Source: an uncultured Bacteroidia bacterium (lineage in GTDB: Bacteria > Bacteroidota > Bacteroidia > Bacteroidales > UBA932). From it: a DNA stretch of 35,912 nucleotides. The notes under the pieces were generated by a model that saw nothing but the letters and a program-made list of their open reading frames with translations, searched no databases and was not told where the DNA came from. Shown in pieces: positions 3,566-14,329 of the stretch (its first letter is position 1; every line of letters begins with the position of its first letter). The position numbers and the translations under genes were made by a program. The stretch spans positions 1 through 35,912 of the forward strand of contig CACZDC010000013.1 of assembly GCA_902779785.1 (NCBI GenBank). Direction: 5' to 3'.

Positions 3566-5068
3566 ATGATGAGAAGATACGCAATATATCTGTCACTTGC
3601 CCTCGCCGCCCTATCCTCCTGCGGGAAAGAGCCTTCAGGCACCGTGTCCGCCTTTACGGACACGCCCATCCGCATAATGGCAGGAGCAAAGGAGGCAAGC
3701 AAGGCACTGCTCGACGGGACCGACGCAATGGACCACGTCGGCACCAAGACGACCATATACGACTATCTGTCGGACTTCGAAGGGACCATCAAGGTGGACG
3801 GAGCCCCCGAGGCCACTTATACCACCAGCGACGAATTCAAGTACTTCTCCGACGTCATATCCTATCCGGACCGCGAGGGAGCGTGGACCTATGACAGCGG
3901 CAACAGCTACCGCTGGACACGTACCGGCACGCACACCTTCTTCGGCTGGATGACCGCCGACGGCTCGTCCTCCCTTACGACCCAGGGCGTTTTCGGCACC
4001 ACGAGCTTCGATGAAAGCACCCGGGTGCTGACCCTTCCGGCAGCGACAATGGACCCCGGCAGCGCCCAGTACGACTTCCTCTATTCCGAGAGCAAGAGCG
4101 TCGAGGCCGCCCAGGCCGGGAACGCCCCTGTCCCGCTTCAGTACAAGCACCTCTTCTCGGCCCTTAAGATTCAAGTGCAGAACGCCTCCACCAGCACCTT
4201 CGTGGTGACTGGAGTATCCTCTGCCTTCATCTATAACACCAAGTCCGCATCGATTGATTTCACCGACGGAAGCGTCTCATACTCAGGCAGTACGGCGAGC
4301 AACATCATTCCCGCCATATCGACCACGACTATGGCCCCCAATGACAGTTTCTACCTCTGGGGCGACGATTTCAAGCTGATGTGGCCCCAGCTCCCCGGAG
4401 AAATCGCCGCGGCCAAACTGATAGTCTCGTACTATATGCCGGACGATCCCTCGAGTACCTATGACGTGGCCATACCTCTGAACAAGGTCAGGGTAGGCGG
4501 CCACCTTCTCACCGAGACCGGACTGGAAGCCGGAAAGAAATATACCTTCATCCTCCAGTTCAAGGACAGCTCCATAGACCTGGACATCCAGGTTCTGGAC
4601 TGGTACTATACGGAGTATGTATGGAGCTTCGAAAATACTTCGGTGGCGGCCAACCCCGACGCCCCTTACGACGGCGTATTCTGGCTCTTCCACGAAGACG
4701 GGACCACCGTTTCCAAGGACGTCGACCGTAAACTGACGATGAACAACTCCCAGGAGGTCCTCAAGGGCTCGTTCTACATTGCCTCCCCTTACCAGGGACG
4801 CTGGCAGATATCCATTTTCCCTATGGACGCCGCCCAGTATTTCGTAATCGAGCCGAACTCCGGAGACATCACGCGGGAGATGTTCGACGAACCGGACCCT
4901 CACAAGAGAGGATATATAGAGTTCAACATCAGGGCGAATCCGGAAGTAGCGGCGCCCATCTCTCCGCAGACCGCCCACTTCAATGTGTCGGTTTATTTCG
5001 GGAACGAATGGCACGACGCCAATTCCGAATTCAACCGGAAAGATTTCCGCCTGGTACGTAATCCATAA
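3566..5068 (+). CDS. Fimbrillin-like lipoprotein with extra C-terminal domain
   Basis: The 500-aa product has a lipoprotein signal (MMRRYAIYLSLALAALSSC). Its Mfa-like core includes YRWTRTGTHTFFGWMTADG, a QYDFLYSES block (equivalent to the DIMYAD block of the neighbours), LQYKHLFSALKIQVQNAS and GKKYTFILQFKDSSIDLDIQVLDW. After the fimbrillin core (to about residue 350) there is a further domain of about 150 residues, predicted beta-rich, that the shorter paralogues lack. It lies between the subunit genes and the two giant genes, so an accessory, anchor or adaptor subunit is plausible. It begins 53 bp after the previous stop and ends 6 bp before the next ATG. Confidence 0.82.
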   Translation: MMRRYAIYLSLALAALSSCGKEPSGTVSAFTDTPIRIMAGAKEASKALLDGTDAMDHVGTKTTIYDYLSDFEGTIKVDGAPEATYTTSDEFKYFSDVISYPDREGAWTYDSGNSYRWTRTGTHTFFGWMTADGSSSLTTQGVFGTTSFDESTRVLTLPAATMDPGSAQYDFLYSESKSVEAAQAGNAPVPLQYKHLFSALKIQVQNASTSTFVVTGVSSAFIYNTKSASIDFTDGSVSYSGSTASNIIPAISTTTMAPNDSFYLWGDDFKLMWPQLPGEIAAAKLIVSYYMPDDPSSTYDVAIPLNKVRVGGHLLTETGLEAGKKYTFILQFKDSSIDLDIQVLDWYYTEYVWSFENTSVAANPDAPYDGVFWLFHEDGTTVSKDVDRKLTMNNSQEVLKGSFYIASPYQGRWQISIFPMDAAQYFVIEPNSGDITREMFDEPDPHKRGYIEFNIRANPEVAAPISPQTAHFNVSVYFGNEWHDANSEFNRKDFRLVRNP

Positions 5069-10833: not shown

Positions 10834-11493
10834 GTGCGCCTGAAAGTCTTATACCTTTTTATAGCTCTTCTCCTTCTCGGAGGAGAGCTTTATTCTCAGG
10901 AAGTGCTCAAGGCATCCAGGGTAGAGGCCCGCTCAGGCAGGCGCAGGCCCTCCCTGGGGCTGCCCCTGCACCCCGACGGGCAGATCGACCACGCCGTCTG
11001 GAATGCAGAAGGTATATGGATGGGCTCGGACATCTTCAAAGGCGCCCCCTTCTGGAATATGGCTCCGGCCGGCTTATGCAAAGAATTCGCCCTGAAGGAC
11101 GTGCTCAGCCTCTGCGGCAAATGGACGGAAGAAAGGCCCAAAGGAGCCCCCGCGATAGTATGGGGTCCCTACGGCAAATTCATTTTCGCCGCAATCTGCA
11201 AGAAGACCGGCAGCTCCCTCGGCTGGAAATCCATCGCCTTCATCATCCCCAAGGAAGGCATCGCCCCCGGCAAAAGCGTCTACGACTACTCCTGCAGCGT
11301 CAATTCCCTGGAGCACAGAATCGCCTACAACCTCTTCCCGAAACTCCCCCCACACCTCCAGGAAATCATTGAAGAAATGACCTCCTGCGAGCTATTATGT
11401 CCATTCCAGGAGTTCGATGCAGGAGAGCTTGACGAAGCGCCCGAGAAAGAGCTCGAGATGGATATGGAACTCGACTACCTCGACATCTACTGA
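10834..11493 (+). CDS. Secreted protein of unknown function at the end of the fimbrial operon
   Basis: I do not recognise this 219-aa protein. The start is a GTG 9 bases after the upstream TAG, chosen because it opens into a signal peptide (MRLKVLYLFIALLLLGGELYSQ, probable cleavage after the S or Q region). No ATG is available upstream in this frame. The mature part has several Cys residues, basic patches near the N-terminus and a strongly acidic tail (ELDEAPEKELEMDMELDY). Its position 9 bp after the putative tip gene suggests a role in, or co-expression with, fimbria assembly. The same reading frame continues through the upstream TAG, so stop-codon read-through would give a fusion; the signal peptide argues for separate translation. 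Confidence 0.65.
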   Translation: MRLKVLYLFIALLLLGGELYSQEVLKASRVEARSGRRRPSLGLPLHPDGQIDHAVWNAEGIWMGSDIFKGAPFWNMAPAGLCKEFALKDVLSLCGKWTEERPKGAPAIVWGPYGKFIFAAICKKTGSSLGWKSIAFIIPKEGIAPGKSVYDYSCSVNSLEHRIAYNLFPKLPPHLQEIIEEMTSCELLCPFQEFDAGELDEAPEKELEMDMELDYLDIY

Positions 11494-11503
11494 GGCCCCG
11501 CCG

Positions 11504-11646
11504 TTTCCCCGGTCGGCAAGGCCAGCGGCCCGAAGGCGCGAAGGCAGACCGCCGGGAAGGGCGGGCAGGATGGTGGAGCCGAGGGCTCCTGGGCGAAGCC
11601 GGCCATTTCCGGCCGGCGAGGCCAGCGGCCCGAAGGCGCGGGGGCA
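11504..11646 (+). repeat. GC-rich palindromic element, intergenic copy (right half plus full core)
   Basis: A 43-base right-half copy (11504-11546) is followed, after a 21-base linker, by a full 79-base core (11568-11646). The core matches the cores at 13652-13731 and 13802-13881 almost base for base. It contains two hairpins: GGAGCC-GAG-GGCTCC, and GCCGGCC-ATTTCC-GGCCGGC (11598-11617). In the other two copies the second stem is GCCGACC/GGTCGGC. The A-T pair there is a G-C pair here, so both sides changed together and pairing is preserved. The element therefore looks selected for, or spread as, a folded structure. Confidence 0.85.
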
Positions 11647-12385: not shown

Positions 12386-12522
12386 CCACGTTGACAGCTG
12401 GAACGCACCCAGCAAGCGATTTGGCGTCAACGCGGTCGGGAAAAGGACCATTCTGCAACGAATACGTGCCACGTCGACACGTGGGATGCACCCAGCAAGC
12501 GATTTGGCGTCAACGCGGTCGG
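12386..12522 (+). repeat. Two-copy direct repeat, 83-bp period
   Basis: An exact 35-base match (beginning GCACCCAGCAAGCGATTTGG) occurs at 12405-12439 and again at 12488-12522. The similarity extends about 19 bases upstream at lower identity (CCACGTTGACAGCTGGAAC against CCACGTCGACACGTGGGAT). The period of 83 is not a multiple of three. Function is unknown; a decayed mobile or site-specific recombination element would be one explanation. Confidence 0.8.
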
Positions 12523-12680: not shown

Positions 12681-12707
12681 CCGCCGACCATGACAGCCGG
12701 TCGGCGG
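12681..12707. other. Perfect 9-bp hairpin preceding the 51-bp array
   Basis: CCGCCGACC (12681-12689) pairs perfectly with GGTCGGCGG (12699-12707) across a 9-base loop. It directly abuts the first unit of the tandem array, so it may mark the array boundary. Part of the stem (GCCGACC/GGTCGGC) is identical to the second hairpin stem of the palindromic element found at 13682-13702, which may indicate a shared origin. Confidence 0.6.
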
Positions 12708-12709
12708 CG

Positions 12710-12930
12710 GTGCCGGGAAACTCTCATTTGGCGGCACAGAGGGCCTCCAAACAGTAATCGGTGCCGGGAAACAGCCATTTGGCGGCACGGAGGGCCTCCA
12801 AACAGCAATCCGTGCCGGGAAATCGGCATTTGGCGGCACGGAGAATGCCAAAACAGCAATCGGTGCCGGGAAACAGCCACTTGGCGGCACGGAGATAAGC
12901 GAAACAGCTGGCAGTGCCGCGAAGTAGAGA
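12710..12930 (+). repeat. 51-bp-period tandem array (four good units, a fifth decayed)
   Basis: TGCCGGGAAA or a close variant recurs at 12711, 12762, 12813, 12864 and (decayed) 12915, exactly every 51 bases. Each good unit has arms GTGCCG and CGGCAC that can pair around a centre. Variation is concentrated in two short stretches per unit: a hexamer after GGGAAA (CTCTCA, CAGCCA, TCGGCA, CAGCCA) and an octamer after the second arm and GGAG (GGCCTCCA in units 1 and 2, AATGCCAA, ATAAGCGA). It is not CRISPR-like in size or spacer diversity. The units stay open on both strands because 51 is a multiple of three. Confidence 0.85.
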
Positions 12931-12973
12931 CGGAGATGGCAACGTGCACGACTGCCGTCCGTTAGAGCGCACC

Positions 12974-13252: not shown

Positions 13253-14329
13253 CTAATGATTAACGCCGTAGCCAAAAAGGGCGAAATCGCCTTTGAGGGG
13301 ATCGTCGGGGAAGATGGTCGCAAGGGTGGAGGTGAGACGGAGGGCGGAACTCATTGAGGCGTTGCGGGAATGGATTAGACCAAGGGCAGAGGCCTCAGTA
13401 AGTACGTGAGTATCAAGTGGAACGATAAGGCTGCGCTTGTCGATGAAGTCTGCCCATAGGCCGAGGTCCACAGGGGAGGAGTCGCGGACCATCCAGCGGA
13501 GGAACATACAGAGCCGTTTGCAGGCCGAGCTGGCATCTTTCGGGACTACGGCCGAAGTGCCGAAATGTCGGCACAGCGCCTCGACGGCCGCAAGAGCCGA
13601 TGCCTTCCGTCCCTGCGGCAAAGCACCGTCGGCAGCCGAGTCCGTCCGGCCGGATGGTGGAGCCGAGGGCTCCTGGGCGAAGCCGACCATTTCCCGGTCG
13701 GCAAGGCCAGCGGCCCGATGGCGCGAAGGCAGACACGCCGAGGGTTCAGCGGCCCGAAGGCGTGGGGGCAAAGCACCGTCGGCAACCAAGACTGTGCGGC
13801 CGGATGGTGGAGCCGAGGGCTCCTGGGCGAAGCCGACCATTTCCCGGTCGGCGAGGCCAGCGGCCCGAAGGCGCGAGGGCAGACACGCCGAGGGTTCAGC
13901 AGCCCGAAGGCGCGAGGGCAAAGCACCGTCGGCAGCCAAGACCTCGCGAAGATAGCCGCCAAGAGAGCCATAGCGCCCCAGCAAAGCCCGCAGAAGCTCC
14001 AAGAAGCGGAACATATCGCCCCGGGTGTAGAGACGGTAAAAACAAGCCGGATCCCCCTCGAAAAAGCAATCCCTGTACGCCCCGTCCCGCACCCAGGCAT
14101 CCGGTTGTCCCTCAGCCGAGTCCAGCAGAGACTGGATCTTCGGCAGGAACTGCGCCCGGCTCCCGTAACTCAGACCCGCCGCAAGGAAAGCCATCACCTC
14201 CCGGTCCGCATCCGACGAGACCTGGTGCATAAACCACGAAGGGTCCCCGACGATGAAATCGGCCGTTTCATAGCGCTCCGCGTACTCCCTCAAAAGAGCG
14301 GCCACATCACAAGAAACACTATTCTCCAT
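13253..14329 (-). CDS. TIGR02757 family protein (DUF2400) carrying an in-frame two-unit repeat insertion
   Basis: The N-terminal part (residues 1-132: DPSWFMHQVSSDADREVMAFLAAGLSYGSR) and the C-terminal part (residues 233-358: KRLCMFLRWMVR, LIVPLDTHV, DPLKGDFALFGYGV) match the TIGR02757 family. These are uncharacterised Bacteroidetes proteins of roughly 250-260 aa with a helix-hairpin-helix DNA-glycosylase-like look. Between them lie exactly two 50-residue units (133-182, 183-232), each starting ADGALP and containing RLRAAGLADREMVGFAQEP. They are encoded by a GC-rich palindromic element also present in intergenic DNA. Without them the protein would be 258 aa. The gene overlaps the upstream NUDIX gene by 11 bp, so the two form an operon. 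Whether the product still folds is unknown. Confidence 0.88.
   Translation of the reverse strand: MENSVSCDVAALLREYAERYETADFIVGDPSWFMHQVSSDADREVMAFLAAGLSYGSRAQFLPKIQSLLDSAEGQPDAWVRDGAYRDCFFEGDPACFYRLYTRGDMFRFLELLRALLGRYGSLGGYLREVLAADGALPSRLRAAEPSACLPSRLRAAGLADREMVGFAQEPSAPPSGRTVLVADGALPPRLRAAEPSACLPSRHRAAGLADREMVGFAQEPSAPPSGRTDSAADGALPQGRKASALAAVEALCRHFGTSAVVPKDASSACKRLCMFLRWMVRDSSPVDLGLWADFIDKRSLIVPLDTHVLTEASALGLIHSRNASMSSALRLTSTLATIFPDDPLKGDFALFGYGVNH
13623..13937 (+). repeat. Two 150-bp tandem units of the GC-rich palindromic element inside a gene
   Basis: Unit 1 is 13623-13772 and unit 2 is 13773-13922, followed by a 15-base partial third start (GCACCGTCGGCAGCC, 13923-13937). The units differ at about 11 of 150 positions, so they are not a simple assembly duplication. 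The shared core (13652-13731, 13802-13881) has hairpins GGAGCC-GAG-GGCTCC and GCCGACC-ATTTCCC-GGTCGGC, as in the intergenic copy at 11568-11646. The 150-bp length keeps the host reading frame, and no stop codon arises in it on the coding strand. Confidence 0.92.

Follow-up and report, generated by a model that had tools for sequence, protein, structure and literature searches.

A dispersed palindromic repeat lies in frame within conserved protein genes of an uncultured Bacteroidales bacterium

How does a conserved protein gene come to carry two long, nearly identical repeats and still keep its reading frame? The question is raised by a gene of the TIGR02757 family (13253..14329, minus strand; 358 aa), recognized by its ORF and a profile match, in the window analyzed here, the whole 35,912-nucleotide stretch on contig 13 of an uncultured Bacteroidia genome (2.78 Mb in 126 contigs, 95% complete, 4.79% contamination). 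The TIGR02757 profile matches the protein with 156 bits (cut-off 139.2), and the match is split into two separate stretches. The insert consists of two 150-bp units of one repeat family (D2), both on the minus strand: the first in gene order at 13767..13916 (residues 138-188) and the second at 13617..13766 (residues 188-238). They are 93% identical, with 11 substitutions and no indel, and each amounts to 50 codons. The two in-frame units had been seen in the original prediction, whose interval of 13623-13937 describes the same tandem in another register. BLAST also revealed an extra, third copy of a 27-nt piece of the unit end flanking the tandem (13917..13943, minus strand). The G+C content is 72% in the units vs 59-60% elsewhere in the gene. 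Five of the 11 substitutions between the units are synonymous, and purifying selection on the insert peptide was thus not seen. A single unit folds moderately more stably than its shuffles, with z at -1.79 for the gene strand and -2.78 for the opposite one. A single-sequence AlphaFold2 model of the protein was too poor for use (mean pLDDT 42.5).

We searched for TIGR02757 in 61 genomes and found it in 38, the source genome included; the loci of 30 of the other 37 (15 from the genus and 15 from the order) were aligned. The 100-residue segment, suspected from the outset to be an insertion, is missing from all 30 aligned proteins. The homologues measure 232-300 aa vs 358 aa here, and the seven left outside the alignment have open frames of 233-254 aa. 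One homologue (L042) has a different, unrelated extra stretch of about 40 residues close to the place of the insert. Homologues of the same genus resemble the protein less (42-53% in the C-terminal part) than does L041, which belongs to another family of the order (62% over 119 residues, 237-355), and TIGR02757 was found in 22 of the 36 congeners searched, a pattern for which transfer or loss is possible.

The same DNA is found elsewhere in the genome. A BLAST search with one unit returned 26 pieces, the best of them outside this contig with an E value of 2.8e-43, which excludes a chance match. A covariance model (R1), built from 21 copies, found 34 matches in the source genome with E<=0.1, 31 of them with E<=0.001; these 31 copies fall at 24 sites, eight of them in frames that stay open, in agreement with the earlier description of the core as a dispersed palindromic repeat. 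Each unit of the tandem contains one core, at 13795..13878 (103 bits) and 13645..13728 (107 bits), both on the minus strand. The presence of the core in nearby intergenic DNA was also borne out: R1 places a copy at 11561..11643 (minus strand), 3' of the gene at 10834-11493 (plus strand), and BLAST a partial copy at 11505..11554 (minus strand), 12 bp past the stop codon of the same gene.

The element is about 84 bp long and is constant in sequence at both its 5' end (TCGCGCC) and its 3' tail (TCGGCTCCACCAT). Between them lies a long imperfect palindrome, the stem of which varies in sequence among copies yet remains paired; the alignment of 32 matches contains at least three stem types, e.g. those of dnaX, of tsaB and of the main group. 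Two parts of the original prediction have to be revised accordingly. The mobile unit is not the 150-bp repeat but rather the core of about 84 bp, locally part of a composite of about 115 bp; and, at 75-85 nt among the R1 copies, its length is in some cases not divisible by three, the frame being kept by the insert as a whole. In the TIGR02757 gene, a single insertion would have been followed by a 150-bp tandem duplication, at this site only. A search of the genome for the 13-nt tail gave 28 matches, vs one for a reversed-pattern control; 27 of the 28 are at R1 copies (E<=0.02) and the other one, at C7:36441, has an E value of 0.083. An origin of the tail from a tRNA (GGCTCCACCA resembles a tRNA 3' end) was considered and rejected on the positions of the tail matches. 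No known RNA family was recognized either, with no Rfam match at the gathering score in the window. The consensus is open in all six frames; as 29% of its dinucleotide shuffles are too, we consider this largely an effect of base composition and not a special feature.

The palindrome itself is maintained, since both partners have changed together in 12 of the 18 stem pairs (45 cells in the 32-match alignment). The covariation score is 0.250, vs 0.102 in shuffles (none of 500 reach the observed value) and at most 0.034 in slid controls; pairing is seen in 94.8% of the cells, a share that is 85.2% for shuffles and 24-59% for slid controls. These figures come from an alignment fitted to the R1 structure, which biases them in favour of pairing.

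Eight of the 24 sites, with 10 of the 31 copies, lie inside reading frames that continue on both sides of the element. They are found in the TIGR02757 gene and dnaX (two copies each), in gnd, comF, tsaB and an M20 peptidase gene, and in the frames of an 895-aa protein and a 313-aa product. Coding sites were placed by open frames, family searches and a simple dicodon gene caller. The caller marked seven of the eight; comF, not called through the element, was added from the alignment and rests on its open frame and the family matches on either side. All inserts found keep the frame and have no stop codon in it, a result that is partly due to case selection, because the reading frames were found by being open. 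The element lies on the coding strand at six sites and on the other strand at two (tsaB and the 313-aa frame), and uses phases 1 and 2 on the same strand and phase 0 on the opposite one, i.e. three of the six frames in both orientations.

In four conserved genes (TIGR02757, gnd, tsaB and comF), the in-frame copies are absent from orthologues. The gnd product matches TIGR00873 with 698 bits, and its insert (query 307-349) sits in a gap of the sequence alignment where human PGD (4gwg) has nine residues (310-318). In tsaB, TIGR03725 covers 257 residues for 212 positions, and the loop has 59 aa vs a standard of about 15 aa. The comF product has 292 aa; 21 of 29 relatives have 238-251 aa (most about 242), and the other eight 261-327 aa, the extra segments in relatives being mostly low-complexity. 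The M20 peptidase has its insert between the conserved THMDTVPPY and GRGACDAKG, where NF006402 spans 226 residues for 188 positions; here absence from the family is judged by the profile only. The 895-aa protein, which belongs to no Pfam or NCBIfam family, has a loop of 61 aa, vs 23 aa in its shortest relatives. The 313-aa frame had no Pfam or NCBIfam match and no credible solved structure. Among the named genes dnaX is the weakest case, because the Ala/Pro linker that holds its copies varies in any case (NF011531 spans 626 residues for 612 positions).

Outside genes, 14 of the 16 non-coding sites lie 12-251 bp 3' of a gene predicted by the simple gene caller, the exceptions being those on C58 and C11. 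A ninth site with an open frame, L147, has two copies just ahead of a predicted gene and was counted as non-coding. Pfam searches on ten flanking genes, one of which had no Pfam family, matched several of them near the end of the profile on the side of the element (e.g. FtsX, ExbD, AsnA and H_PPase); none of the ten was seen to be split by the element, with short truncations still possible. The placement of these copies, mostly just 3' of genes, is REP-like, and at the transcript end they would probably fold into an RNA hairpin.

The element is thus dispersed, has inserted within this lineage, keeps its palindrome, and lies in frame where homologues lack the insert. We consider it very probable that the insert of the TIGR02757 gene represents two tandem copies of a non-autonomous mobile palindrome resembling REPs and Rickettsia palindromic elements (RPEs), tolerated in gene loops when in frame. 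Such an element would move through an enzyme acting in trans. Insertions that break the frame or hit the core of a protein would be lost by selection, and this loss may be the reason why genes show only in-frame additions to tolerant loops; high G+C, which leaves few stop codons, would make several frames usable in either orientation. Judged from sequence, the insert would be translated as an extra loop, probably unstructured.

We could not tie a transposase to the element. The 95%-complete genome has five Y1-like frames (PF01797), none of them flanked by it, and R1 found nothing significant around the five; hairpins of other sequence were seen in the flanks of four and none at the remaining one. 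Direct repeats of at least 8 nt flank nine of 32 copies, vs 9% in a swapped-flank control, and most are at tandem or composite sites. The core copies in L067 and L068 abut, on their 3' side, an A+T-rich hairpin that resembles the hairpins flanking a Y1-transposase-like frame in L152.

Beyond the source genome, few matches to the element were found. In searches of the genus with BLAST and R1, scored on the best few candidates per genome, BLAST matched one other genome among 200, weakly (G165, E 1.6e-4), and R1 gave one weak match in 199 congeners (G223, E 1.5e-4). The exact degenerate pattern of the 27-nt core had no match in the GTDB-220 genome collection, from which near relatives are possibly absent. 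A 20-nt tail pattern had no match in viral contigs, and we reject a viral origin; in genome contigs it had 29 single matches in other phyla, many in Brevundimonas, which we take as chance since there is one match per contig stretch. The palindrome of G223 (L144, about 1495-1590) is built like the element, with GCGCC, then a long stem and then GGCTCCACAA, and folds at -53.5 kcal/mol. It lies in frame within a 448-aa UDP-glucose 6-dehydrogenase, residues 179-210 of which align with nothing in the solved enzyme 3phl and fall between its chain residues 201 and 202. It could be a remote relative belonging to the same family, for which a single copy is no proof.

Congeners carry other repeats in the same loops. 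The CGTC-type REP pattern GTCATCYYGAGCGAAG was found in 77 of 200 genomes of the genus (its control gave 0 in every row), and it occurs within gnd of G176 and G208 and within tsaB of G080 and G210, in the loop homologous to the site of our element. In these four congeners it is multi-copy, with 6, 7, 10 and 15 matches. The TsaB loop has 9-21 aa in 26 of the 29 best relatives and 39-63 aa in three, one of which (G080) has GTCATCYYGAGCGAAG; frequencies were taken from these 29 because G210 had been chosen for its long frame. For the 895-aa protein, the best-scoring 19 of 187 matching genomes were read at the loop by eye: nine have clear GTCAY-type palindromes, one a degenerate palindrome (L297), one another repeat (L286), and eight none. 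In a hairpin test of 20 loops, where a pass means that at most 10 of 200 shuffles are as good, six loops read as repeats passed (L145, L284, L285, L286, L290 and L294), and so did L299, read as repeat-free. The test separates the two groups poorly, and the reading of this loop therefore rests on the motifs seen by eye. The Gnd and TsaB loops give the same picture for fewer species. In G165 the gnd frame (L160, C41:23907-25267) is in two parts near the loop that has inserts in other species.

These data suggest a broader proposal, which we regard as evenly balanced: that in this genus a few protein loops are recurrent landing sites for unrelated palindrome families, different in each species, which insert in frame and become loop sequence. 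If this is true, palindromes would be a standing source of new protein segments.

The reuse of the same loops in other species, together with stems that have kept pairing through many double changes, could also suggest that the copies within genes were recruited to serve a function, such as hairpin-tuned expression or a new contact surface. However, the element is confined to its own genome except for one weak match in 199 congeners, the sequences that fill the same loop differ between species, and covariation is also expected if selection acts only on the mobile copies; we consider recruitment improbable. It is very unlikely that the tandem, or coding copies in general, are artefacts of assembly or binning, mis-joined at repeats. 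The fragmentation and contamination of the assembly would fit such errors, as would the location of some copies near contig ends (e.g. C18:79, C10:317, C1:953 and C51:284), but 11 of 150 positions distinguish the two units, each gene keeps its frame and its family match across the copy, and copies at separate sites have unlike flanks and divergent sequences. Congeners, moreover, have in-frame inserts of the same type from other repeats.

An insert that is never translated has a precedent in phage T4 gene 60, where the ribosome skips part of the message. Skipping of the hairpin, or its removal from the RNA, might be suspected from the presence of a strong hairpin within conserved and probably needed genes (gnd, tsaB, dnaX). 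It is not required by inserts that are all in frame and free of stop codons, and a skipped insert would be free to have any length, so that we find this reading less likely still. Finally, we reject the hardly credible reading of the 100 residues as an ancestral domain of a TIGR02757 subfamily: although the closeness of the protein to L041 might mark a separate subfamily, L041 itself (256 aa) and the other 29 aligned homologues are without the segment, and the same DNA is found between and within unrelated genes.

A mobile palindrome tolerated within genes is of a kind already known from RPEs, intragenic REPs and MITEs; the family and the lineage are new. The passages of PMC2229807 and PMC10969869 concerning RPEs describe several families of short palindromic repeats of about 105-150 bp, located between genes and also in frame in conserved protein genes, with an RPE-bearing guanylate kinase that is made and active. 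The parallel with RPEs drawn in the original prediction holds in that our element is a palindromic repeat forming a long stem-loop (by covariation and folding) with in-frame copies in conserved protein genes that are absent from orthologues. It differs from RPEs in its lineage and its shorter core (about 84 bp), a separation based on descriptions of RPEs, and in its use of at least three frames and both orientations, where the RPE review, in the part on this subject, gives a conserved peptide per RPE.

GTAG/CGTC REPs, as covered in the relevant sections of PMC3733652, are palindromes of 20-40 bp that carry a fixed tag at one end and are located mainly 3' of genes. Our element is likewise mostly 3' of coding regions with some intragenic copies, but it is longer, and neither GTAG nor CGTC is found at its constant ends (TCGCGCC and TCGGCTCCACCAT); CGTC-type REPs are what congeners carry in the same loops. 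The same sections report REPs within ORFs in several species, including one recB site shared by two Xanthomonas, and CGTC-tagged REPs in Bacteroidetes. The expectation that no such element had been described in this lineage therefore stands for the genus as far as open-licence papers go, but not for repeats of this kind in Bacteroidetes at large or within genes of other species. Our search of open-licence papers found no earlier report of such repeats in this lineage, nor any paper on the peptide HPERSEGS. That different families should fill the same loops time and again exceeds the single same-site case we found in the literature, that of recB. Bacterial MITEs with ORFs (Correia/NEMIS, ERIC, RU) are presented in the part of PMC2229807 devoted to them as small, non-autonomous elements fused in frame. 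Ours resembles them as a small non-autonomous repeat with open frames; unlike MITEs, it lacks clear terminal inverted repeats beyond its own palindrome and shows no clear target duplication, and the transposase search by PF01797 found no parent IS.

Palindromes that code for protein are best known in intracellular Rickettsiales; our results add an uncultured genus of which hundreds of species have been sequenced. The genus lets the process be watched, as loops without any repeat in some species contain differing repeats in others, and whether such repeats are merely tolerated or a source of useful protein sequence thereby becomes testable. For annotators the results carry a warning: species-specific insertions in housekeeping proteins may be repeats.

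Other repeats were observed in the course of the analysis. A second GC-rich repeat (CCCTTCGGGGCTATCCCTCCCAC ... GAAGTCCC) lies beside the element at three sites of the source genome (L068, around 4089-4250; L071 and L076, around 4100-4250). In the window, positions 12386-12522 contain a direct repeat of 54 nt, 91% identical and 83 bp apart, and positions 12690-12965 a tandem array with a 51-bp unit (copies at 12710, 12761 and 12812), the copies of which are 77-84% alike over 102 nt, with long frames open on both strands.
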